A DNA stretch of 64,000 bases from Bifidobacterium ruminantium DSM 6489 (GTDB lineage Bacteria; Actinomycetota; Actinomycetes; Actinomycetales; Bifidobacteriaceae): positions 1-64,000 of the forward strand of contig NZ_JDTK01000012.1 in assembly GCF_000770925.1 (NCBI RefSeq), given 5' to 3'. A program made the translations under genes and the position numbers. Under the pieces are notes generated by a model. The model searched no databases and was not told the origin of the DNA. It saw only the letters and a program-made list of their open reading frames with translations. Each line of letters opens with the position of its first letter. Position 1 is the stretch's first letter. Shown here one piece after another: positions 38,868 to 45,178 of the stretch.

Positions 38868-39740
38868 TTAGACAGAGCTTCGTCCGATTGTCTCCTTCCC
38901 TGGTCCGCGGCGCAATCCCTCGATCAGATCGATGAACGCGTGTTCCTCCTGCTCCACGCAGTCAAGGAAAATGGAACAGAACGAATCCGTCTTGCCGTCC
39001 ACCTGCCAGGCCTCCAGACTGCGGGCATAGTCGCGCTTGGCGTCATACTTGATCGCCACGGGACGATAGCCGTGCCTCAGCAGCATGAAGTTGAGCAGCT
39101 GGCGGCCGGTACGCCCGTTGCCGTCCATGAACGGATGGATGTTCTCGAACATCGCGTGGAAGCCAGCGGCCCTGAGCAACGGATGCGCGTCGCTTGCGTC
39201 CAGCCCGTCGATCAGGGATTGCAGGTCGTCGCGGATCTCCAGCGGGTCCGCGGTCTTGACGCGGGTCGCGGTGATCCTCGCCAGATAGCCGTACGGGCGG
39301 AACGTGCCGCGGGCGAACGGCTGGAGGTCCAGCGCGGTCACCTCGTGGACGCGACGGACCAGCTCCTCATCCAGTCTCCGCCCTTCCCGGGCGTATTCGC
39401 GCACGTAGGCCATGCCGTCCGCAACGCCGCGCGCGGCGAACACATACCGTGCCGGCGAATCCGACGGGACGAACTCGCCCTCCAACACCAGCGACGTGTC
39501 CTCCAGGGTCAGCGTGGATCCCTCAATGGCGTTCGAGTTGTAGGTGTACCGCACCAGCCAGTCGCGGTCGTAATCCTCCAACGCCATGTCCTCGACGCCG
39601 TCCAGCGGCTCCAGCGCGCGGGCACGGTCCTTCAGCGCGTCGATCCGCCGCAGACGTTCGGCGGTTCCCGGCTCGCGCTCAAGGTCGAGCAGTTCCTCGG
39701 GCAGCGCCTGTATGCGCTGTGATAGCTCGGGATTGGCCAT
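38868..39740 (-). CDS. fic: Fic-domain AMP-transferase
   Basis: 290 residues from ATG 39740 (GAGGGGC upstream; an adjacent ATG at 39743 is also possible). The Fic active site is complete: HPFMDGNGRTGR near residues 203-214. Such enzymes transfer AMP to a target protein. The protein also carries its own inhibitory motif, SNAIEG near residues 67-72, the mark of class II Fic proteins. It therefore has both internal inhibition and a neighbouring VbhA-like gene. No helix-turn-helix tail is evident. It lies inside the repeat-bounded island. Confidence 0.9.
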   Translation of the reverse strand: MANPELSQRIQALPEELLDLEREPGTAERLRRIDALKDRARALEPLDGVEDMALEDYDRDWLVRYTYNSNAIEGSTLTLEDTSLVLEGEFVPSDSPARYVFAARGVADGMAYVREYAREGRRLDEELVRRVHEVTALDLQPFARGTFRPYGYLARITATRVKTADPLEIRDDLQSLIDGLDASDAHPLLRAAGFHAMFENIHPFMDGNGRTGRQLLNFMLLRHGYRPVAIKYDAKRDYARSLEAWQVDGKTDSFCSIFLDCVEQEEHAFIDLIEGLRRGPGKETIGRSSV

Positions 39741-39753
39741 CATGCCCCTCTTT

Positions 39754-39962
39754 TCATGTTCCGGTTGCAAAGTCCACTATTCCAGCCGCAATCCATTTTG
39801 GCGATGCGGACGATTCCCCGAATCTCCCATGAAGCATGTCCATGCTCCTGCGACACTCATTCGGGCTCATCCAACCTTGGGATTCCTTAACCAGCCCTCA
39901 CAATAGTACTCCAAGTGACCGTCGAGCTCAGCCACGAACGCATCGACGTACCCAGCGGCAGC
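39754..39962 (-). pseudogene. IS3-family transposase C-terminal remnant
   Basis: Two frames side by side read YVDAFVAELDGHLEYYCE and then VKESQGWMSPNECRRSMDML, the order expected at the end of an IS3-type transposase, with a frameshift between. The rest of the transposase is absent. It abuts copy 2 of the cyclophilin-leader repeat. The gene-free stretch 39741-40274 holds only this remnant and that repeat. Confidence 0.55.
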
Positions 39963-40274: not shown

Positions 40275-41180
40275 TCATTGGCCTGTGAATTTTGAGTATT
40301 CCGGTTTGAGCATGAGATTGAATGTGCACGGCGAGAGCCATGGGTGCTTGGCGAGGATGAGTTCGGTTTCGTTCGGATCCGTCTTGTCGTTGTACAGTCC
40401 CGGGCGGTGAGCTATGAGCACGGTGTCCGCGTACTGGCATACAGAGTCCGAATTCCTGAGGTGGAAAAGCAGAGGTCTTCTGCCGTCTATGCGCACCCGA
40501 CCCCGTTCCATTTCCGATGTCACGATGACGGCGATGTCGATCTCGTCGGCGAATGATGCGAGTCTGTCCAGCACCTTGCCCAATTCGCAGCCTGAATTGT
40601 CGGCGATGACGTCGATGCGATGCAGGACCACGAGTTTCAGGTCCACGGTTCTTTTCAGCCTGCGGCAGGCATCCATGATGGAGTCCAGGGTAATGGATCG
40701 TTCCGAATTGACATACAGCGGCATATGCTCGCACAGCGAGCAGAATGCGTCGCATAATCCCCTTTCGTCCTCATCGAGGCCGCCGTCCGCGAGGAGGACC
40801 TTCATCGGCACGTCGGTCTCCGCCGACATGATACGCACCGCGATTTCGCAGCCGGACAATCGAGGGCAGAAGATGGCGGATGGCAGTCCGTTCACGGCTG
40901 CGTGGCGCACGATGTCCAGTTGCAGGTTCCTCGAATCAGCCAATGTCCATCCAGAGATGATCGTGAGGGTTCTTCGGGCGAACCCGTTGGTGCGTTTATC
41001 GTATTCCTTGAATCCGCTGGGCACGTAGTTCCCGTCCGCTGGGTTGATGCGCTGCTTGTCCATCAGCTCCATGACCTGCAGCATCGCCGTATATATCGGA
41101 TTCAGGTCGCATGGGTCCTCCCCGCCATGTGCGTCGGCGGATGCATTGCCGCCCATGTGTTGCGTGATGATGTGGTTCAC
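40275..41180 (-). CDS. DnaB-helicase-like C-terminal domain without Walker A
   Basis: 301 residues from GTG 41180, eight bases after GGGGAGG. The chain follows the DnaB RecA-like domain: VPSGFKEYDKRTNGFARRTL, TIISG, a VIVTSEMERG strand, RRPLLFHLRNSDSVCQYADT, then HRPGLYND and ELILAKH. The ATP-binding loop that should read GxxxxGKT is replaced by GWTLADSRN, and the Walker B aspartate is replaced in LVVLHRID. The primase-binding N-terminal domain is absent. It probably cannot hydrolyse ATP but might still pack against host or phage DnaB. Divergent from the 41277 gene across a palindrome. Confidence 0.75.
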   Translation of the reverse strand: MNHIITQHMGGNASADAHGGEDPCDLNPIYTAMLQVMELMDKQRINPADGNYVPSGFKEYDKRTNGFARRTLTIISGWTLADSRNLQLDIVRHAAVNGLPSAIFCPRLSGCEIAVRIMSAETDVPMKVLLADGGLDEDERGLCDAFCSLCEHMPLYVNSERSITLDSIMDACRRLKRTVDLKLVVLHRIDVIADNSGCELGKVLDRLASFADEIDIAVIVTSEMERGRVRIDGRRPLLFHLRNSDSVCQYADTVLIAHRPGLYNDKTDPNETELILAKHPWLSPCTFNLMLKPEYSKFTGQ

Positions 41181-41227
41181 TTCGGTTCCTCCCCATACAA
41201 CGATGTTACAAGCATACCTGCTTATGT

Positions 41228-41249
41228 GGTATCTTATATACAAGATACC
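41228..41249. promoter_or_regulatory. Palindromic operator between divergent island genes
   Basis: Arms GGTATCTT and AAGATACC around ATATAC; a further GATACAAA half-site follows at 41253. It lies 27 bases before ATG 41277 and 48 bases before GTG 41180, so one regulator could control both genes. Confidence 0.6.
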
Positions 41250-41276: not shown

Positions 41277-42000
41277 ATGGCAACATTATGGCTCCGCTGC
41301 AGGCATCTGGTCATCGACCCATGCAATCGCATGCCCGGTCATCTTCCTCGGTCCGACGGATGGCTGAACAGCCAGAACGACAGGCTTGCTCAAACCGTGT
41401 GCGACTGGCTGTCCGACCTAGCCTGGGATGGGTGGCGCGTGGAGGCCTGCGTCGGTTCGTTCGACTCCACAGCGATTGACGTGCGGGACCTGCTGGAACT
41501 GTGCCCGGAGCGTGGGGAACGTGACGGCCAGGGGTATCAGGTCTCATGGTTTTCCGTCGAACGTACCGATTCCGAGAAAATGCGAGTGCTTGACGAAGAC
41601 GGCGACGAGGTCGACGCCGAGCTCTTCGAGTGCGAGGAGTATCAGCGAATCTGGGATGCCGTCGATCCGCTATGGCTGATTTTCGACAACGGAGAGGAAG
41701 ATGACGATTCCGACCCCAACAATCGCCACCAACCGGAATCCTCCTATGAGGATCCATTGCCTCCCGATCTGGCGATTCGTCTCCTGACCGCCAGGCAATC
41801 CCTGCGGCGGTTGAGGGAGTCACTGGGATCTTACCCAGAGATACCGGCTGACGCTGTTCGGAGAGGAGGGCTTCACCGTCGACAACGCGTGGTTTGAGAC
41901 CATGGAACAGAGCTGCGACCAGCTCAATGAACGCGTGCACGCCTACGCGCCACAGTCGTCATGTGCGAATCCCCAGGACGACGGCTTCGATCGAGAATAA
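41277..42000 (+). pseudogene. Unrecognised island gene with a probable 3' frameshift
   Basis: ATG 41277 has a perfect AGGAGG site. The first frame runs 206 codons to 41897, and its last ~20 residues turn basic and unlike the rest. From about 41826 a second frame continues as DLTQRYRLTLFGEEGFTVDN and on to TAA 41998-42000 in the same acidic style as the main part (EQSCDQLNERVHAY). This suggests a one-base shift between 41815 and 41845. The restored protein would have about 240 residues. I recognise no domain. The next gene begins 47 bases after the second stop, as expected for one operon. Confidence 0.55.
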
Positions 42001-42047
42001 CTTCACCCTCTACATACTGAAAATAGACAAAACAGAAAGGATCCGCA

Positions 42048-43583
42048 ATGCTTACCGCCGACATCGATGCCGACCGCTCAATCGTCACGTTTCGCAATGA
42101 GGACGACAAGACGGAACTGACTATCTCCACAGCTCCCCTTTCCACCGTCGAGGCAACTCCGGCCGCCCATCTCATCCCGTCTCCCGGCGCCAAGGCCGAA
42201 ACCGCGCTGAAACAGACCGCGGAGATCATCGCATCGCTTACCAACACAAACAGCTACATTCACATTGATTTCCCGGATGTCATCTCCATCTGCGCGTCCG
42301 CGGCTATACGCATCATACGGTTCAATGCCGGAGATGATCCGAGCAAGGCATTCTCGGACGCGCTCGCCGCGCAAGGGATCAACCCGTCATGCTGCGATAG
42401 GGCGCTGATCAACATTGGGGCTCCCGCCAATATTGGTCTGGCCAAAGTCACCTCATTGGTCACAATCGTGCAGGAAGCGGTCCAGGACGACGCCTTAATC
42501 ATCTGGGGTCTGGCACTGGACCCGCAACAAAAAGACACGAAAATCGCCGTCATCCTCGCAGAGTCCGAAGGAGAGACGGCGGCGCACGAAACCGCCAAAA
42601 AAGAATTGACTACCGGAAAGGACACTCAGATGATGCAGGAAGAAACGATGGATACACCAAACACGCCGATTCGGTTCCTTGATTTGATTGGATTGGACAA
42701 CGAACAACTGAAAGATTTCACTATCAGGTTGAACGGCAACAAGCCTGCTTGGTTTGATGTACTTGATGCCTACTACTCATCGCATGATGAGCTGATGGAG
42801 TGGGTATTTATCAAGCAATGGCCTGGGCAGCAGGTGAAGGGAGCTTTCAAGAAGAAGAAAGTTCTGCAGTTCATCCAACTTCACCAGGAAGACCCGACGA
42901 AATGGCTGTTCATAGGTGCTTCTGAAGTCCTTGGCGAATATCAGAAAGAAGACGGCACTGTCGCGTACGACTACCGAGAAATACCGCAGTATGCCCCGTT
43001 GGACGCTCGCGCTGTGGTGTATTACAAGAAAAGCCAAGGACCCACTCAACTTATGAACGATATGGGCAACGATAAGTTGCGGAATCGTTTCTTGGAAACC
43101 ATGACCCTAGACCACTTATCGCAGTCTCCAATTTCCTCGCTTCCCTTCCCCGGTTTTGAAAACGTGTGTCTCACTCATCGGCAGCTAGTTGCCGCAGTGA
43201 GAAACGATACATGGAAAACTGCTCTGGGCAACGTCCAAGCTGTTTACCTGCAAACCGACCGTCGTACTGGATGGCATTACGTTGGTTCTGCCTACTCACA
43301 TAAGGGTGCAGAGCAAGGATTATTGTCCCGTTGGTCGGAGTATGCCTATGGTGATCATTCTGGTGGCAACAAGCGTCTCAAGGAGCTGGGTGCCAAATAT
43401 ATCGTGGACAACTTCCAATACTCGATTCTAGAAATCTTTGATATGCGCGCTTTGCCGAAAGACATCATTAATCGGGAGCATTGGTGGATGGACACTCTCA
43501 GTTCTGTATACCATAGCGAAGATGAGCATCCACATGGATACAACTCTGTCGCAGAGCGTAATAGCGACAATCCCGTTGAGTGA
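42048..43583 (+). CDS. FtsZ C-terminal-like domain fused to GIY-YIG nuclease
   Basis: 511 residues. About residues 55-175 follow the FtsZ C-terminal domain: IHIDFPDVISICASAA, ALINIGAPANIGLAKV, then DDALIIWGLALDP and KIAVILAES; the GTP-binding half of FtsZ is absent. Residues ~210-385 match the region preceding many GIY-YIG nucleases (RFLDLIGLDNEQ, AVVYYKKSQGP, FPGFENVCLTHRQL). The nuclease core is AVYLQTDRRTGWHYVGSAY near 396, with GLLSRWSEYA and REHWWMDTL. No stop separates the parts, but ATG 42648 has AGGAAG upstream and could start the nuclease alone. The nuclease half is more A+T-rich than the front half. Confidence 0.75.
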   Translation: MLTADIDADRSIVTFRNEDDKTELTISTAPLSTVEATPAAHLIPSPGAKAETALKQTAEIIASLTNTNSYIHIDFPDVISICASAAIRIIRFNAGDDPSKAFSDALAAQGINPSCCDRALINIGAPANIGLAKVTSLVTIVQEAVQDDALIIWGLALDPQQKDTKIAVILAESEGETAAHETAKKELTTGKDTQMMQEETMDTPNTPIRFLDLIGLDNEQLKDFTIRLNGNKPAWFDVLDAYYSSHDELMEWVFIKQWPGQQVKGAFKKKKVLQFIQLHQEDPTKWLFIGASEVLGEYQKEDGTVAYDYREIPQYAPLDARAVVYYKKSQGPTQLMNDMGNDKLRNRFLETMTLDHLSQSPISSLPFPGFENVCLTHRQLVAAVRNDTWKTALGNVQAVYLQTDRRTGWHYVGSAYSHKGAEQGLLSRWSEYAYGDHSGGNKRLKELGAKYIVDNFQYSILEIFDMRALPKDIINREHWWMDTLSSVYHSEDEHPHGYNSVAERNSDNPVE

Positions 43584-43779: not shown

Positions 43780-44205
43780 ATGACTGAAATTGTGACGATG
43801 AAACTTGGCCCCCGCAGAGAACTTGGCTGGGTCGAGGACCTGCCAGAGGGCGGCACTCGGCATCTGGTGGGATGGGATCCCAAGATGGAAGGCGACTTCG
43901 AAGAAATCTGGCGTTCCGGCAACAGCTGGTGGCGACTCGAACCTGGCCGGGCGGTCCGCTGCGATCTCGGCCTCGTCCTGACTCCCGACAACGTGGTGGC
44001 GTGCGTCGCCAAGATCAACGGCATCATCAAACGCGATGATATGCGCATGGGCTTTATCGGCGAGCCAATCCACGGCGACTACGACAATTGGATTGGCAAA
44101 ATTCTCGAACGCAACGACTCCAAGAACCCTATCGCCTACTTCGACGAGCGAGCCATTCTCCCTCCCAACAAAGTCACCAAAGACACTGAAAAGCTTAATC
44201 TTTAA
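43780..44205 (+). CDS. Unrecognised island protein, 141 residues
   Basis: ATG 43780 with GGATATGGGGC upstream; the frame is open to 43711 but with a hydrophobic, unlikely extension. The product is soluble and rich in Trp and Gly (RRELGWVEDLPEGGTRHLVG, SWWRLEPGRAVRCDLGLVL). It lacks a signal peptide, membrane segment or motif I recognise. It lies between the GIY-YIG fusion and an IS3 remnant. Confidence 0.65.
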   Translation: MTEIVTMKLGPRRELGWVEDLPEGGTRHLVGWDPKMEGDFEEIWRSGNSWWRLEPGRAVRCDLGLVLTPDNVVACVAKINGIIKRDDMRMGFIGEPIHGDYDNWIGKILERNDSKNPIAYFDERAILPPNKVTKDTEKLNL

Positions 44206-44420: not shown

Positions 44421-44780
44421 TCATGGACGCGACTGACGGTGAGGCGGAATGTCACCCGTCGCATCAAGACCGGCATCAAGGTCGTTCGCGTCGCGCAACG
44501 ACAACCTGCCGAAATACTTCAACAAGTCACCATCGCCAAACCAGAAACGCTGCGAGCATCTCGCCACGGATGGCTTGTATAGGCCCTCCTGACGCCAGTC
44601 AAGCAACGGCACGTCACCCGGACCGTTCCATGTCGTCACACTGGTCACCTTGACGACGATACCCGAGACCCGATCGCCCTCGACCCTGGTGACGATGACG
44701 GGCCTGATCTTGCCCACGCCGGGATGATCGGGGAACTCGACGCGCATCAGCCACACGTCATATACTTCGGGCTCATGCAT
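44421..44780 (-). CDS. MazF/PemK-like toxin
   Basis: 119 residues from ATG 44780, overlapping the antitoxin stop by eight bases (ATGCATGA). The beginning VYDVWLMRVEF, then KIRPVIVTRVEGDRVSGIVV and VKVTSVTTW follow the MazF/PemK fold of mRNA interferases, though the usual N-terminal R-G-[DE]-[IV] is replaced. The antitoxin is of RelB/DinJ type. Apparently complete. Confidence 0.65.
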   Translation of the reverse strand: MHEPEVYDVWLMRVEFPDHPGVGKIRPVIVTRVEGDRVSGIVVKVTSVTTWNGPGDVPLLDWRQEGLYKPSVARCSQRFWFGDGDLLKYFGRLSLRDANDLDAGLDATGDIPPHRQSRP

Positions 44781-45069
44781 GATCGTAGATGTCGTCCGCC
44801 GGATCGTCCCAGTCCTGAGGCAGTACGATGTTGCCCGTACTCTTCGAACGCTCGAACCGATACGCGTCATGAGCCGGCGGAACCGGATATCCATCGGATC
44901 GGGTCGCCCTCAGACTCGGTGTGAACGGCATGCCCTTGTCGCGGACCACCTGCCGCAGACAGATCTCCGTGAATGAGCTCAGGCTCAAACCCATCTGCTC
45001 AAGCACGTCCGCCGCCTCACGCTTGACCTCGGGATCCAATGCAATGGTCGTCCGTTCCTTCACAGCCAT
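44773..45069 (-). CDS. RelB/DinJ-family antitoxin
   Basis: 98 residues from ATG 45069 with GAGAGGTGGTTGCT upstream. The ribbon-helix-helix start ERTTIALDPEVKREAADVLE and SLSSFTEICLRQVV are typical of RelB/DinJ. It should bind its own promoter and the toxin encoded next. The acidic C-terminus (QDWDDPADDIYDHA) would be the toxin-binding part. Last gene of the island. Confidence 0.82.
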   Translation of the reverse strand: MAVKERTTIALDPEVKREAADVLEQMGLSLSSFTEICLRQVVRDKGMPFTPSLRATRSDGYPVPPAHDAYRFERSKSTGNIVLPQDWDDPADDIYDHA

Positions 45070-45178
45070 AGCAACCACCTCTCAATATGCATTACATAAG
45101 AATTATGTAAATTATATGCAGCTCTAATACACATCCACAAGTTACTCAAATAAATTCTGCTTGGTAAGCATCATGACC

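Follow-up and report, generated by a model that had tools for sequence, protein, structure and literature searches.

We describe here an open reading frame of Bifidobacterium ruminantium DSM 6489 whose N-terminal half is a genuine FtsZ C-terminal domain without the GTPase half, and which continues in frame into a sequence identified by profile as UzuA, the predicted GIY-YIG nuclease of the Uzume antiphage system. Both halves of the frame are exchangeable cassettes, each with its own history; the FtsZ fragment is under purifying selection and belongs to a protein family, seen here in Bifidobacterium only, that consists of the FtsZ C-terminal domain alone and measures 142-184 aa when free. The presence of such a fragment in a locus with a swappable nuclease suggests, as far as sequence comparison goes, that antiviral defence is connected with the division machinery. 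The frame (511 aa, 42048-43583, plus strand, ATG start) is present as given in a preliminary description, whose observation is confirmed and whose interpretation, a division-protein mimic that ties DNA cleavage to FtsZ or to a phage factor attacking FtsZ, is partly supported. The features of the locus in the window (the whole stretch of DNA that was analysed, 64,000 nucleotides) are the following:

40275-41243, minus strand: DnaB C-terminal-domain-like gene without the helicase N-terminal domain, with the presumed Walker A and Walker B motifs altered; open in the window.
41277-41997, plus strand: U gene, no known family; a frame shift near 41836 leaves a 206-aa ORF (242-271 aa in relatives).
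42034-42041, plus strand: SD-like AGAAAGGA ahead of the FtsZ_C start, read directly; similar in L096, L088 and the free G099 copy.
42048-42578, plus strand: FtsZ C-terminal-domain-like half, residues 1-177, from profile and PDB sequence matches and alignment.
42192-42563, plus strand: FtsZ-homologous part, residues 49-172, with the end of H7, the T7 loop and the helix and strand order of the C-terminal domain.
42249-42281, plus strand: T7 synergy loop and start of H8, residues 68-78, with conserved D74 and D77, from alignment.
42579-42629, plus strand: linker and exchange point of the two cassettes; the free B. boum protein stops 5 residues past GET.
42615-42622, plus strand: SD-like GGAAAGGA, 7 nt ahead of ATG 42630; possible separate nuclease start in the fused frame.
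42648-43583, plus strand: UzuA-type GIY-YIG nuclease (start 42648 or 42630), with the UzuA match at residues 255-487.
43780-44205, plus strand: D gene, no known family, ~140 aa; in 19 of 112 genus genomes.

Pfam, TIGR00065, PDB sequence and Foldseek matches agree in placing an FtsZ C-terminal domain at residues ~49-172, where the preliminary description had aligned one by eye, and rule out a chance likeness to FtsZ. Pfam FtsZ_C matches the first 191 aa at E=4.7e-6 (27.3 bits, just over the cut-off of 27) and the entire ORF with 24.7 bits, under that cut-off, while TIGR00065 (ftsZ) matches at E=1.9e-8 over profile positions 190-328 of 353 only, far under its equivalog cut-off, as is expected of half a protein. 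The top PDB sequence matches of the ORF are FtsZ chains. The AlphaFold2 model of residues 1-194 is modest (mean pLDDT 60; ~79 over residues 90-170) and has, in order, the elements H50-65, H75-82, E85-93, H98-109, E118-125, H131-144, E150-157 and E165-173; the best 50 of its 1064 PDB matches in Foldseek (E up to 10) are all FtsZ, the top one at E=3.9e-10. A profile or structure comparison with FtsZ had been set beforehand as the test of the likeness, and both fold and profile matches proved significant. The GTPase half is missing, as had been claimed: the Pfam Tubulin/FtsZ GTPase domain has no match in the window ORF, nor in the fragments of three relatives. An N-terminal extension of 48 residues lies outside the FtsZ match and is alignable with that of the free G099 copy. 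The same genome carries an ordinary FtsZ, with GTPase and C-terminal domains, on another contig (C23), 35% identical to the fragment. In pairwise comparisons the fragment is mostly 32-37% identical to the FtsZ of the genus, as against 24-32% to that of the order's other families, and it probably descends from the host's own FtsZ.

The residues that the fragment has kept are unevenly placed. As a reference we used the 97 columns that are at least 95% constant across 24 Bifidobacterium FtsZ sequences; the window fragment keeps 33 of them, and those of G024, G099 and G045 keep 38, 26 and 34, with Y70, I71, H72, D74, D77, A101, I151, W153, G154 and V168 common to all four. Within the T7 block (residues 68-78) the FtsZ residue stands in 21 of 27 cells (window, G099 and G045), compared with 27% in the other 88 columns, and of 97 contiguous blocks of the same size this one alone reaches 21/27. 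A complete FtsZ from Tissierellia, taken for comparison, keeps 5 of 9 in the T7 block and 54 of 92 overall. D74 and D77, the T7-loop aspartates on which GTP hydrolysis in the adjacent subunit depends and which we take to be D209 and D212 of E. coli FtsZ, are invariant in all 33 rows of the alignment, fragments included. H10, which is another part of the FtsZ contact, is poorly retained in the fragments (3-7 of 18), and the H8-H9 region is diverged and shortened relative to FtsZ. According to PMC8456036, the T7 loop of FtsZ enters the GTP pocket of the neighbouring subunit. Retention of this loop over three diverged lineages suggests, as the simplest inference, that the fragment can still attach to FtsZ at its nucleotide face, and a coupling to FtsZ such as the preliminary description had proposed becomes somewhat more likely. 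Its other proposal, a coupling to a phage factor directed against FtsZ, gains no direct support.

With a profile of the fragment, a second FtsZ-like match was found in 8 of 112 genus genomes, namely the six that share the present locus plus G045 and G099, two further species in which the fragment is free (142 and 184 aa, respectively). Pfam FtsZ_C gives the relatives' fragments 32.4 bits (B. boum), 33.6 (G024), 32.8 (G045) and 21.8 (G099, under the cut-off of 27). That the FtsZ half forms a family which also occurs free goes beyond the preliminary description. The G099 copy lies among transporter genes, none of those seen adjoining it being a nuclease; its extension aligns with that of the window, so a free protein of ~182 aa was probably the ancestral state, from which the fusion arose. 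GmrSD-type genes are 2-5 kb away from the G045 copy, and directly behind this copy is a 432-aa protein (L150 12561-13859, minus strand) with no Pfam or PADLOC match. Of 216 genomes of the class, 213 matched; among the matches listed the window's genome alone has two, and the single matches listed are all in frames of at least 378 aa. A scan of genome contigs returned four Bifidobacterium loci and one Tissierellia locus, the last being a complete FtsZ. A viral origin of the fragment was considered and rejected: no relative was found in viral contigs searched with two peptide patterns, and the phage records listed (3 of 3) and plasmid records listed (20 of 362) show no match to the FtsZ half.

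The nuclease half matches the PADLOC UzuA profile at E=8.1e-40, residues 255-487 aligning with positions 43-271 of 278, most of its length; a match to TIGR01453, of group I intron endonucleases, stays under the curated cut-off (E=5e-6, residues 398-488), and Pfam SegE_GIY-YIG reaches only E=0.16 on the ORF. Uzume is a single-gene system, and here, instead of a single free UzuA gene, we find a fused frame in 4 of 112 genus genomes. UzuA-family matches occur in 19 of these 112, 11 of the 19 being without an FtsZ fragment, and the genus has seven near full-length free copies, 44-64% identical. Of 394 genomes of the class, 17 have a UzuA match; the window frame (518 aa) is the longest with a strong match, the next having 398 aa, and one weak partial match sits in a 681-aa frame. 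The statement that this nuclease family usually lacks such a partner is thereby borne out. An actinobacterial defence paper counts Uzume among the systems of unknown mechanism (PMC10482375).

The two halves also differ in base composition, as had been noted (residues 1-175: GC 0.573, GC3 0.697; nuclease: GC 0.481, GC3 0.537). The preliminary description had further given the nuclease a possible ribosome site and ATG of its own at 42648. This holds in the following form: the SD-like GGAAAGGA precedes ATG 42630, and ATG 42648 aligns with the start of the free UzuA in L093, a start picked there by its ribosome site, with an earlier in-frame ATG present. A GAAAGGA-type SD-like site and ATG stand at the head of the nuclease, within the fused frame, in both fused lineages, and the nuclease can probably also start alone at this site. 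Since the FtsZ fragment runs into UzuA with no intervening stop in the window and three relatives, a single protein of 511-512 aa is possible, and both halves can, to judge from the frame, be translated as one chain. By shuffling, the chance of an open linker is 0.56 and 0.22.

The locus is common to six genomes of the genus: the window, B. thermophilum DSM 20210 (G060), B. thermophilum JCM 1207 (G143), B. boum (G103), B. moukalabense (G012) and G024, which we take to be probably B. dentium. It is flanked by the DnaB-like gene on one side and by a peptidyl-prolyl isomerase and a RelA gene on the other. At this one locus the window, both B. thermophilum strains and G024 share a fused frame of 511-512 aa, so that the domain order is found beyond this assembly and an assembly or frameshift artefact of the window genome is ruled out; in G024 the linker has diverged and its length differs by three bases, and the frame is still open. 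B. boum has the fragment as a free protein of 182 aa, and the slot behind it is filled by a 416-aa PD-(D/E)XK protein (PDDEXK_4 E=5e-19; PDC-S26 E=5.4e-47), another defence-type nuclease and a second point beyond the preliminary description. Since B. boum and B. thermophilum DSM 20210 do not differ in residues 1-175, the content of the slot has been swapped at the junction. In B. moukalabense the fragment enters, past residue 146, unrelated sequence with DnaB-like remnants.

Between the window and B. thermophilum, dS is 0.156-0.216 for the FtsZ fragment, 0.005-0.010 for the nuclease and 0.77-0.94 for the flanking isomerase, and sliding identity breaks near 42600. These contrasting values indicate a probable transfer of the locus from one species to another, followed later by a further move of the nuclease cassette. 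The fusion had been called recent; this stands for the nuclease half, which was recently exchanged, and does not for the fused order, which G024 shares with a diverged linker. The window fragment has a dN/dS of 0.26-0.43 against its five relatives, and the ratio is 1.37 for the close pair G024-G012, which differs by very few changes. With these ratios and the open frames, a decaying FtsZ pseudogene is not favoured.

The U gene has no Pfam, PHROG or PADLOC match and is present in 10 of 112 genus genomes, all 10 of which have a UzuA-family match; four of them (G027, G111, G059 and G043) have the gene order D-U-UzuA without an FtsZ fragment. If weak relatives and remnants are included, 16 of the 19 genomes with D have a defence-type nuclease close to it. 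In eight this is UzuA (G000, G060, G143, G024, G027, G111, G059 and G043), and in five it is a PDC-S26/PDDEXK_4-type gene (G103, G055, G050, G029 and G139, with G055 and G139 assigned by tblastn only). G028 has a modification-dependent endonuclease of the PvuRts1I-SRA type, G012 a weak relative of UzuA (31%), and G099 a D remnant next to UzuA. For G058, G102 and G047, where D of G047 is close to a contig end, 2, 3 and 2 neighbouring ORFs were scanned, and none of these was counted as a defence nuclease; they are of transporter or metabolism type, apart from an FtsK-like one, which has a PADLOC SspH match as well (9.5e-23), and one of ABC type whose PADLOC matches are weak (best 1.5e-6). D could be a shared partner or immunity protein for different nucleases. 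Its model (pLDDT 66) has in Foldseek a weak likeness to the PD-T4-3 5hmC endonuclease (E=0.048), which is not used as evidence. The neighbourhoods of U, D and UzuA or other nucleases mark the setting as a defence-type locus with an exchangeable nuclease. Downstream of D, G024 and B. moukalabense carry a second, distant UzuA relative (31%; L088 9757-10587 and L089 8944-9774, both on the minus strand).

The DnaB-like gene reads GWTLADSRN for GRPAMGKST and VVLHRID for VVIDYLQ, motifs that are presumably Walker A and Walker B, and it is interrupted or split in all five relatives. Left of the locus, the window has a Fic/DOC family protein (38868-39770, minus strand; Pfam E=1.1e-17), and on the other side MazF/PemK-like toxin (Pfam just under the cut-off) and RelB-like antitoxin genes (44421-45078, minus strand); the Fic, CmpB-like, MazF-like and RelB-like neighbours have no tblastn match in the stretches of the relatives' locus examined.

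We tentatively favour an explanation in which a GTPase-less FtsZ paralogue that docks on FtsZ has come to serve alongside exchangeable defence nucleases, sometimes fused to them. A fragment with the T7 loop and without a pocket of its own would attach to FtsZ, or to a filament, at the exposed nucleotide end and, having kept the one and lacking the other, could stop growth at the filament end; UzuA fused to it would be held on the division machinery, or alternatively the fusion would couple a division block to nuclease action upon infection. About equally likely is an incidental fusion, in which fragment and nuclease are neighbours independent of each other, a stop was lost when the nuclease cassette was exchanged, the nuclease is made mainly from its own start and the fused chain has no function. 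What keeps this rival strong is the ribosome site and ATG that the nuclease has retained inside the fused frame in both lineages, which also counts against a functional docking module, as does the linker, likely to be open by chance; the separate histories of the two halves, the free B. boum fragment beside another nuclease and the G099 fragment with no nuclease seen adjoining fit independent neighbours as well. Against mere accident stands the frame itself, open in four genomes and, in G024, across a diverged linker of different length, and this speaks for a functional fusion. The co-occurrence of the fragment with UzuA bears on the same choice: all 8 fragment genomes have a UzuA-family match, as do 19 of the 112 overall, at a P of 1.6e-7 that ignores kinship (six of the 8 share one locus), and given the shared locus the chance of UzuA in both other lineages is ~0.015. 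However, UzuA of at least 44% identity is present in only 5 of the 8, the matches of G012, G103 and G045 being weak, partial or interrupted, and, counting against a docking module, UzuA does without the fragment in 11 of 19 genomes. The G099 copy with no nuclease seen adjoining, the poorly retained H10, the modest structure model and the dN/dS of 1.37 for G024-G012, on few changes, weigh against docking too. A wider form of the docking explanation, in which the bifidobacterial FtsZ C-half is a portable docking or sensing module tying UzuA and PDC-S26 nucleases to the state of the division filament, seems rather unlikely; if true, FtsZ disturbance in infection, or a division arrest caused by the module, would be part of the immune response.

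It is improbable that the fragment, and once also a dead DnaB C-domain, serves as a decoy or sensor, mimicking a host machine attacked by phage so that the bound phage factor is trapped or the nuclease released. The defence-type setting would suit such a role, and it is striking that a partial FtsZ and a DnaB with altered Walker motifs, two copies of essential proteins and both probably inactive, lie side by side; inhibitors of the FtsZ C-domain also exist, such as MciZ, which acts on H10/S9 (PMC8456036). Yet the DnaB-like gene is broken in the five relatives, FtsZ docking accounts more simply for the retained T7 loop, no phage factor for the fragment is known here, and the one phage inhibitor considered for its site, T7 Gp0.4, was docked in silico (PMC4944311) on the nucleotide half, which is absent here. 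We regard as highly unlikely a plain division inhibitor, toxin-like or a stress-induced capping protein, with a role outside defence and with the defence genes gathered at an insertion hot spot. MciZ gives a precedent for a small FtsZ-capping protein (PMC8456036), the G099 copy has no nuclease among the genes seen adjoining, and the window's Fic, CmpB-like, MazF-like and RelB-like genes, unmatched in the relatives' stretches examined, would agree with a hot spot; but the fragment co-occurs with UzuA, and fragment loci have defence-type nuclease genes in 7 of 8 genomes, counting the weak UzuA relative of G012.

The fragment and its locus resemble several known systems and differ from each of them: (i) With FtsZ (TIGR00065; Pfam FtsZ_C PF12327) the fragment shares the C-terminal fold and order of elements and the T7-loop aspartates; unlike FtsZ, it has no N-terminal GTPase domain, carries its own 48-residue extension, is diverged and shortened at H8-H9, and occurs free or fused to a nuclease. 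(ii) The nuclease half is alike to Uzume UzuA (PADLOC PDLC03973/PDLC03974) over most of the profile, whereas here an FtsZ fragment precedes it in frame and U and D genes accompany it, as they do in four other Bifidobacterium genomes. (iii) The candidate PDC-S26 (a PDDEXK_4 nuclease) fills the slot behind the fragment in B. boum, and similar genes adjoin D in four other genomes; its nuclease family is unrelated to UzuA, and it is separate from the fragment, with no fusion. (iv) The action proposed for the fragment at the filament end would be like that of MciZ and other FtsZ-capping peptides; the peptide MciZ, however, has 40 aa and attaches to H10/S9 in the C-domain of FtsZ (PMC8456036), whereas the fragment, an FtsZ C-domain in its own right, would contact the face on the other side, that of the nucleotide. 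By these comparisons the nuclease is a member of a known system and the FtsZ fragment the new part attached to it.

At the level of titles and abstract openings of the open-licence papers listed, we found no description of a GTPase-less FtsZ paralogue, of an FtsZ-nuclease fusion or of an FtsZ decoy. The three mentions of FtsZ in PMC7641849 concern zapAB and bolA, and PMC12923530 describes CMoRE, a type IV enzyme of the GIY-YIG kind. If this frame encodes an antiviral nuclease joined to a natural binder of the FtsZ end, it would offer a direct handle on two questions, the trigger of UzuA and the reading or control of the division machinery by defence systems, with the free fragment of B. boum as a natural control. 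Elsewhere in the genus, the UzuA gene of G099 lies, within L091 1063-4365, near an HTH-bearing C5-cytosine methyltransferase and an ORF that by eye is resolvase-like, surroundings that recall a restriction-modification arrangement.
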